Origin: Aneurinibacillus terranovensis DSM 18919
GTDB lineage: Bacteria; Bacillota; Bacilli; Aneurinibacillales; Aneurinibacillaceae
Direction of reading: 5' to 3'
DNA: 56,657 nt
NCBI RefSeq assembly: GCF_000430625.1
Contig: NZ_KE387173.1
Span: forward strand, 133,089-189,745
Part shown: positions 34,132-36,196 of the stretch, one piece after another
Position numbering within the stretch: the stretch's first letter is position 1
Layout: every line of letters starts with the position of its first letter
Translations under genes and position numbers: made by a program
The notes under the pieces: model-generated
Seen by the model: only the letters and a program-made list of their open reading frames with translations
What the model was told of the DNA's origin: nothing
Database searches by the model: none

Positions 34132-36036
34132 TCACGTGATTTCCTTAAAACGAAATTCCACAAAGTCGTCCCACATCTCGAGAAATAAATCAATTAACCG
34201 CGGATCAAATTGTGTTCCTTTGCCTTCAAGTAATGTTTCTCTCACCTGTTCCAGAGAGAACGGTTCCTTATAGACCCTTTTCGATAAAAGGGCATCAAAC
34301 ACATCGACAATCGCGACAATTCTCCCTTCCAGCGGAATGTCCTCTCCTTTAAGCCGACTGGGATAGCCCTTTCCATTCCACCATTCGTGATGGGTTTGCG
34401 CAATCCGGGCGGCCATCTGGATAATGGGCAAATCCATGTTGGCTAATATTTGGTAACCGATCTGTGCATGGGTCTGCATGTACTCCCTTTCTTCAGGCGT
34501 TAATTTTCCCGGTTTATTCAAGATCGAATCGGGAATTCCGACTTTTCCGATGTCATGGAACTGAGCGGCTGTACGAATGTTCTTTACAAAACTTTCATCA
34601 CACCCCGCGAGGCGTGCCAGTTCCTCCGACAACATTCCGATCCGGTACACGTGGGCACCGGTGTCGTCATCCCGGAACTCCGCCAGCTGCAGCAACCCGT
34701 CTAGCGTATCAAATATCATCTTTCGCTCCCGTGTTTTATCCTGGATAATTAACAGCGCATGGGATAACCCAAAGATTTCATTCTGTGGGGTATGAAGCGC
34801 TTTGGTCGTATGCTCGGTGCACAGAAACATTGTCGCATGGGTTGATTTGGTTAGAATTGCGCAGTCGGTGCAGGGAAAGTTCCGCTGCCGTATCACCTGG
34901 TAACAGCGTTTGCCAACCAAACTCCGCTCTTCGTCCCCCGCCGCTCCATAAGGGGATTTCTGCATCGATTCATCTACCCACGTAATTCTCCCGAAGTCGG
35001 AAACACTGATTTCACACGCATAAATATCAAGAAATTTAAAATGCTGAAAGGATTGATAAGGTTTAAGAATATCCTGCAGCAGAGAAATCGTGAATTTCAT
35101 CAGTTTTTCAAAGGCAGTTACGAAGCGGTACATTTTTGTATCCGCTTCCGAATTCAGGAAAATGTCCCGCATCGTTTGATTCAGGCATTCCCCTAGTACA
35201 AAATAGAACGGATATTGTACGGTTCCATCCAATACGAGGCGCGACCAGTCGCGAATCACACGATGATACGCTTCTAAATCCATATAAATTTTATCCTGGA
35301 AAAATTGGAGAAGAAAATTAAAAGCAAAGTCCCGGAACTTCGTATAGTCAAAGGAGCCTTTCATTAGGAGAGGAGCACTTTTCTCCGCATGGACGCTAAA
35401 CAGTTCCCAGAAACGTTCAATAATTTTGGAGACCCTGAAAGAAATAAACCCGCTGAATTCATCAATCAGCCGCAAATCTTCATCGGTAAATCCGATCAGA
35501 TGGCGAATTCGATCCATTTCATAACGCAGGGGATGGACCGCGTGTTCCATTTCTACACGATTATACGATTCTAAAACAATTTGCGTATCAAAGGAAAAAA
35601 CAGCTTGCAGCGCGTTAATTAATAGAATCGATTCTTCCGGAATCTCGCGTTCAATGACTTTCGACAGAATCTCTAAATATTTGGCATACGTCGCAATATA
35701 CCACTGTAGTCCTAAGCCGATGGTAAAATGCACTTTCCCTATTAAATAGCGATTCTGAATATAACGGTCATCGATTTTTGCGGCCAGAATTTCTAGTAGG
35801 TACTGCTTTTGAGTCAATTTTAATTGCTCTAATGTACTACGTCGATTAATGATATTCCGCAACTCTTGCACCTGATAAATCTCGTTATATAACGACTCTA
35901 CCACTCGATCCACATAGGGCATCAGAATCGTACTATATTTGTTTAGCAATTGTAATTTTTCTTCATTTACACCGGAATAGTCCAATTGCTGCTGTCTCGC
36001 TTCACTCGTCACATGTATATGAGTATTTTTCTTCAC
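34132..36036 (-). CDS. globin-coupled PAS/HD-GYP signalling protein (probable c-di-GMP phosphodiesterase)
   Basis: A 634-residue protein starts at GTG 36036, behind an ideal AGGAGGTGATC ribosome site (ATG 36057 would swallow it). Residues about 10-125 form a protoglobin-type sensor with the proximal heme His103 in KVHFTIGLGLQWY. Residues about 180-300 look like a second globin-like helical domain in which the heme histidine is not conserved. A PAS-like segment follows (about 330-435) with a CTDC pair, then an HD-GYP domain with the HD pair at 494-495, HH at 549-550 and GYP at 557-559. It probably hydrolyses cyclic di-GMP in response to O2 or another gas. It sits between yerB and livF and is monocistronic. 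Confidence 0.85.
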   Translation of the reverse strand: MKKNTHIHVTSEARQQQLDYSGVNEEKLQLLNKYSTILMPYVDRVVESLYNEIYQVQELRNIINRRSTLEQLKLTQKQYLLEILAAKIDDRYIQNRYLIGKVHFTIGLGLQWYIATYAKYLEILSKVIEREIPEESILLINALQAVFSFDTQIVLESYNRVEMEHAVHPLRYEMDRIRHLIGFTDEDLRLIDEFSGFISFRVSKIIERFWELFSVHAEKSAPLLMKGSFDYTKFRDFAFNFLLQFFQDKIYMDLEAYHRVIRDWSRLVLDGTVQYPFYFVLGECLNQTMRDIFLNSEADTKMYRFVTAFEKLMKFTISLLQDILKPYQSFQHFKFLDIYACEISVSDFGRITWVDESMQKSPYGAAGDEERSLVGKRCYQVIRQRNFPCTDCAILTKSTHATMFLCTEHTTKALHTPQNEIFGLSHALLIIQDKTRERKMIFDTLDGLLQLAEFRDDDTGAHVYRIGMLSEELARLAGCDESFVKNIRTAAQFHDIGKVGIPDSILNKPGKLTPEEREYMQTHAQIGYQILANMDLPIIQMAARIAQTHHEWWNGKGYPSRLKGEDIPLEGRIVAIVDVFDALLSKRVYKEPFSLEQVRETLLEGKGTQFDPRLIDLFLEMWDDFVEFRFKEIT

Positions 36037-36196
36037 AGGATCACCTCCTCTTTTCATATTATCGTAATTTTCTATTTATGTTGATACTTTTTACCTAAAC
36101 ATTACCCAATCTTTTTATTGTTGCTTTATAATAGATAGTCATAAAAAACTATATTATTAGTGTGAAAGTTGATAATTGAAATATAAAAATGCGAAA

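Follow-up and report, generated by a model that had tools for sequence, protein, structure and literature searches.

Gene structure and genomic surroundings

The window, a stretch of 56,657 nucleotides from Aneurinibacillus terranovensis DSM 18919, carries on its minus strand a gene (34132–36036) for a 634-amino acid protein with the domain order globin-globin-PAS-HD-GYP. We aligned this protein with ten full-length homologues, giving a set of 11 sequences on which the conservation counts below are based. Translation is predicted to start at a GTG codon (36036), which follows a ribosome-binding site (AGGAGG, 36044–36049, minus strand) after a 7-nt spacer, as read directly from the DNA. Upstream of this ribosome-binding site there is also an in-frame ATG (36057). 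A terminator-like hairpin (36209–36192) sits between the tandem-globin gene and an upstream cluster for a branched-chain amino-acid ABC transporter, and downstream are genes that we take, by recognition of their products, to be yerB-, yerC-, pcrB- and pcrA-like. Given the hairpin and the content of the flanking genes, the tandem-globin gene looks like its own transcription unit.

The first globin is predicted to be of the heme type

Globin 1 spans residues 15–162 (35551–35994, minus strand) and was assigned as a protoglobin from Pfam and from matches in the PDB to HemAT, a stressosome globin and other globin-coupled sensors (GCS). The Pfam Protoglobin family (PF11563) matches the whole protein with an E-value of 3.5e-34 in two stretches, the first of them residues 15–162. 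Among solved structures, HemAT (1or4) is closest in sequence, aligning with the domain over its length (E 2.2e-14); next come a globin chain from a stressosome (7o0i, E 9.6e-11), the Geobacter sensor globin and AfGcHK. His103 (35728–35730, minus strand) aligns with the histidine of the HemAT motif iasiHlriGL, and Tyr50 (35887–35889, minus strand) with the helix-B tyrosine of the HemAT motif vdafY. Neither residue varies across the 11 sequences, and the roles of their HemAT counterparts as proximal heme ligand and distal-pocket residue are known from the literature. An earlier note on this DNA had read the first domain as a protoglobin with a proximal histidine, and the Pfam match and the position of His103 on the HemAT histidine bear this out. 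Globin 1 is, as judged from its sequence, a heme-type protoglobin with the proximal His and distal Tyr positions present; it would bind heme and place the protein under gas regulation.

The second domain has a predicted globin fold

Globin 2 (35080–35523, minus strand) covers residues 172–319 according to Pfam and residues 168–322 according to its predicted structure, and was assigned from Pfam, a structural model and a fold search. When the whole genome was searched with the Protoglobin profile, the domain was returned as a separate match (E 2.5e-4) covering profile positions 3–147 of 158. Protoglobin was also the sole match in a Pfam scan of the isolated domain (E 9.1e-5), with a score of 22.9 bits that lies slightly below the curated cut-off of 25. 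The isolated domain matches the same family in all 11 orthologous copies, that of the window included.

To avoid circularity, we predicted the structure of globin 2 with AF2 from nine domain-2 rows and no globin-1 rows. The resulting model is all helical, with a mean pLDDT of 76 and a pTM of 0.75 (a single-sequence prediction of the full protein reached a pLDDT of 36 and was not used). The best 50 Foldseek matches of the model were nearly all globins, the top one with an E-value of 3.5e-3 and a probability of 1.00; none reached an E-value of 0.001. Structural alignment with VIA-align ranked HemAT first (Z 15.4, rmsd 3.0, 150 residues aligned), with 8h17, AfGcHK and the Geobacter GCS globin close behind and GCS globins leading at Z 14–15. 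When the domain-2 profile was compared locally with that of heme globins, the match (76 columns, P 4.9e-5) was weaker than the structural one but agreed with it. With a Pfam score under the cut-off and Foldseek E-values above 0.001, the globin call rests on the agreement of several methods, and in the model domain 2 has a globin fold. The earlier note had placed a second globin-like domain after the first and had named a different fold of residues 180–300 as the outcome that would speak against it; the Protoglobin matches in all copies and the close fit of the model to HemAT support the globin. Searching PDB sequences with the domain-2 profile found no globin, and the best matches (Vps25 and an anti-phage protein) look like chance.

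Globin 2 lacks a heme histidine and is under purifying selection

Where the proximal His would be expected, globin 2 has the motif RDWS (Arg262-Asp263-Trp264-Ser265; 35242–35253, minus strand), which is invariant in all 11 copies. Because a small HMM trained on single globins covered just the first ~40 residues of the domain, we set the histidine register with global hhalign and MAFFT, which fix it to within about one residue: both assign the proximal position to Trp264, and a gap-free reading gives Ser265. The arginine that had earlier been assigned to this position is therefore replaced by one of these two residues. The accompanying claim that the second globin lacks the heme histidine holds in every copy: none of the 11 has a His four residues or fewer from the proximal position. 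Nor is any His or Cys invariant anywhere in domain 2 across the aligned sequences. On the distal side, a MAFFT alignment of both domains puts Phe209 (35410–35412, minus strand) at about the position of globin 1's distal Tyr, in an approximate register. The missing proximal His, the invariant RDWS and the lack of an invariant His or Cys together lead us to the strong inference that globin 2 binds no heme.

In close pairs of homologues, dN/dS ratios are 0.04–0.18 for globin 2 versus 0.05–0.12 for globin 1, values that place globin 2 under purifying selection. The identity of the window protein to its homologues is 39% in globin 2 versus 49% in globin 1, so that over long distances globin 2 is the slightly faster-evolving of the two.

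A PAS-like domain precedes a complete HD-GYP domain

Residues ~335–437 (34726–35034, minus strand) are PAS-like by weak profile similarity. Their profile matches, weakly, the PAS region that follows HAMP in sensor histidine kinases and the PAS region of a GGDEF-EAL protein, a comparison that draws on two proteins and the matched stretch of a third. In the matched proteins the same region matches Pfam PAS_4/PAS_9 and has a similar C-Y...Cys motif; the proteins of the tandem-globin family themselves have no Pfam PAS match. The 11-sequence alignment contains an invariant triad of cysteines, Cys378 (34903–34905, minus strand) and the Cys389-x-x-Cys392 pair (CTDC; 34861–34872, minus strand). The CTDC pair that the earlier note described in this PAS-like segment is real (C389 and C392), and it grows to three cysteines with C378. 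The motif may form a metal or thiol-redox site. The C-Y...PCxxC motif of the domain recurs, with the cysteines conserved, in the PAS regions of Cache-HAMP-PAS-type histidine kinases of other bacilli (L078–L083), where we found no function for them.

The HD-GYP phosphodiesterase domain (residues 451–614; 34195–34686, minus strand) matches Pfam HD_5 (E 4.5e-35) and aligns over 184 residues with PmGH from Persephonella marina (4mcw, E 3.5e-48). The residue alignment shows that H494 and D495, K498, H523, H549 and H550, G557-Y558-P559, D578 and R587xxK590 are all kept. The position of the third-metal ligand of PmGH, Glu185, is taken by Asp458, an Asp in all 11 sequences, which could alter metal content and rate relative to PmGH. 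The motifs agree with the earlier description of an intact HD-GYP domain: the active site is complete at the level of sequence, and we predict that it hydrolyzes c-di-GMP. The same genome has a second HD-GYP gene (C5:190730-191287) on the same strand, ~1 kb past the end of the window and ~22 kb from the tandem-globin gene. It lies in a 390-aa frame, and its catalytic domain is 46% identical to that of the tandem-globin protein.

Distribution and gene neighbors of the tandem-globin proteins

A query with the sensor part against 299 genomes of the class recovered two full-length relatives besides the window, one from the same order (43%) and one from another family (45%). A contig search added eight more full-length homologues from Anoxybacillus, Thermolongibacillus and a Bacillales MAG. 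The domain-2 profile was found in 11 of the 41 genomes of one bacillar family (Anoxybacillus and Thermolongibacillus), with full matches in frames of 632–709 aa. In the window's order, 15 genomes yielded two full matches, another genus of the order included; of 398 genomes sampled from the phylum, the window's was the only one to match. The other genome of the genus lacks the gene, as do all remaining sampled genomes of the family, and searches of viral contigs and plasmids turned up no tandem relative. The architecture is thus conserved yet scattered in its occurrence, a pattern that gene loss or transfer would explain. We also considered 16 other loci with long protoglobin ORFs as candidate tandem globins. 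Their second matches fall in what reads as the signaling coiled coil of an MCP, so none of them looks like another tandem globin.

The neighbors of the homologues are often c-di-GMP or chemotaxis genes. In the Anoxybacillus copies (L037, L065, L066 and L067), a GGDEF-EAL gene lies ~17 nt upstream of the tandem-globin gene, and the one at L065 carries a MASE3 membrane sensor. The two genes apparently form one operon, which would set a c-di-GMP-making/breaking enzyme beside a predicted O2-sensing phosphodiesterase. At two further loci (L069 and L072) the upstream gene encodes an HD-GYP protein. In the Bacillales MAG, a gene for a HemAT-like protoglobin-MCP (L070:359-1843, minus strand) is divergent to the tandem-globin gene.

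A probable double-globin sensor for a predicted c-di-GMP phosphodiesterase

The closest functional precedent is the GCS-HD-GYP protein of Vibrio fluvialis, a dimeric heme protein whose O2 form hydrolyzes c-di-GMP and whose CO and NO forms do not (PMC10882959). Its description suggests that the signal exits the globin via the H-helix and the dimer bundle, and states that no full-length structure of a globin-coupled sensor was known at the time (PMC10882959). By analogy with this single-globin enzyme, globin 1 would sense O2 and pass the signal via globin 2 and then the PAS-like segment on to HD-GYP. The protein is probably a cytosolic globin-coupled c-di-GMP phosphodiesterase with a double-globin sensor, in which heme-free globin 2 serves as relay or dimer partner. 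Its activity would most likely be regulated by O2 or redox state, the heme-free globin relaying the signal or pairing with globin 1. Globin 1 would bind heme through His103 and sense O2 (or redox state or NO). The signal would leave through the H-helix of globin 1 into globin 2, a fixed structural relay or dimer partner, and travel on to the PAS-like domain with its Cys triad and to the HD-GYP domain, where hydrolysis of c-di-GMP would rise or fall with the heme state. As to the sign of the response, the V. fluvialis enzyme, with its single globin, is O2-activated, and the tandem-globin protein may be so as well.

Globin-to-output signal transfer is an open question in the field. A chain with one heme and one heme-free globin would separate the roles of the dimer halves and reveal how sensing of the gas and relay of the signal can be uncoupled. 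For bacilli, the protein is also a candidate c-di-GMP phosphodiesterase under O2 control.

In globin-coupled sensors, two identical globins pair and transmit the signal through a bundle of G and H helices. The chain could therefore be a one-heme pseudo-dimer in which globin 2 replaces the second protomer, yielding an asymmetric sensor with the heme-free half as reference or as reader of a second ligand; we regard this arrangement as possible, if rather unlikely. We give about the same low credence to globin 2 as an independent second sensor, whose heme-free pocket would bind another ligand or a partner protein, letting the enzyme combine O2 with a further input; a role of this kind has been proposed for the non-heme globin domains of RsbR stressosome proteins. 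The purifying selection on the domain and its invariant motifs, among them QFFQ and RDWS, are consistent with such a role, as are the RsbR proteins with non-heme globin domains, which are presumed stress sensors. However, globin 2 has no known ligand, does not match the N-terminal family of RsbR in the Pfam scan, and is the faster-evolving of the two globins (39% versus 49% identity).

Regulation might also come through protein contact or local binding of c-di-GMP, with the enzyme working as a trigger-type phosphodiesterase and the globins serving no gas sensing in vivo. Phosphodiesterases of this type are on record (PMC5052742), but the invariance of His103 and Tyr50 in the 11 sequences and the complete HD-GYP active site make this improbable here. 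It is more doubtful still that globin 2 holds heme or another tetrapyrrole via a different ligand. Its fold is predicted to be intact and some proteins hold heme by residues other than His, yet domain 2 has no invariant His or Cys, and an invariant Trp or Ser occupies its proximal site. Least probable of all, and hardly credible, is that domain 2 is not a globin and corresponds instead to the helical middle domain of globin-coupled diguanylate cyclases such as DosC and BpeGReg. That domain also consists of helices and separates the globin from the output, and it is essential in the cyclases (PMC5549716), but Protoglobin matches domain 2 in 11 of 11 copies and the best structural matches are globins, led by GCS globins at Z 14–15. 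The middle domain of DosC (4zvc) was not among the fold matches listed, which says nothing either way.

Comparison with known globin-based sensors

We found no description of tandem globins on a globin-coupled sensor in the open-access literature, which is weak evidence of novelty. The globin pair appears undescribed and would extend the known family of globin-based gas sensors, not constitute a new kind of system. Like the window protein, the GCS-HD-GYP proteins of V. fluvialis and V. furnissii have an N-terminal protoglobin with a distal Tyr and a proximal His and a C-terminal HD-GYP domain with an Rxx(R/K) motif, but their single globin (1–166) sits directly on the HD-GYP domain (169–366), without a PAS-like domain (PMC10882959). 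HemAT of B. subtilis resembles both globins, aligning with globin 1 over its length (E 2.2e-14) and giving the best fit to the model of globin 2. HemAT, AfGcHK, DosC and BpeGReg have MCP, kinase or GGDEF outputs, whereas the window protein joins an HD-GYP output to two tandem globins, the second without a heme His.

Stressosome proteins of the RsbR type exist in heme (Vibrio RsbR) and non-heme globin versions, and globin 1 matches a stressosome globin chain (7o0i, E 9.6e-11). Each RsbR chain combines a single globin with a STAS domain; the window chain, in contrast, carries both kinds of globin plus an HD-GYP enzyme. The comparison with RsbR drawn in the earlier note stands as an idea. Neither the Pfam scan nor the fold matches listed paired domain 2 with the N-terminal family or structure of RsbR, an absence that proves nothing. 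For the output domain the nearest relative in our comparisons is PmGH, nearly all of whose metal and substrate residues are kept. The two proteins differ in Glu185 versus Asp458 and in their sensor regions, that of PmGH being a GAF domain.
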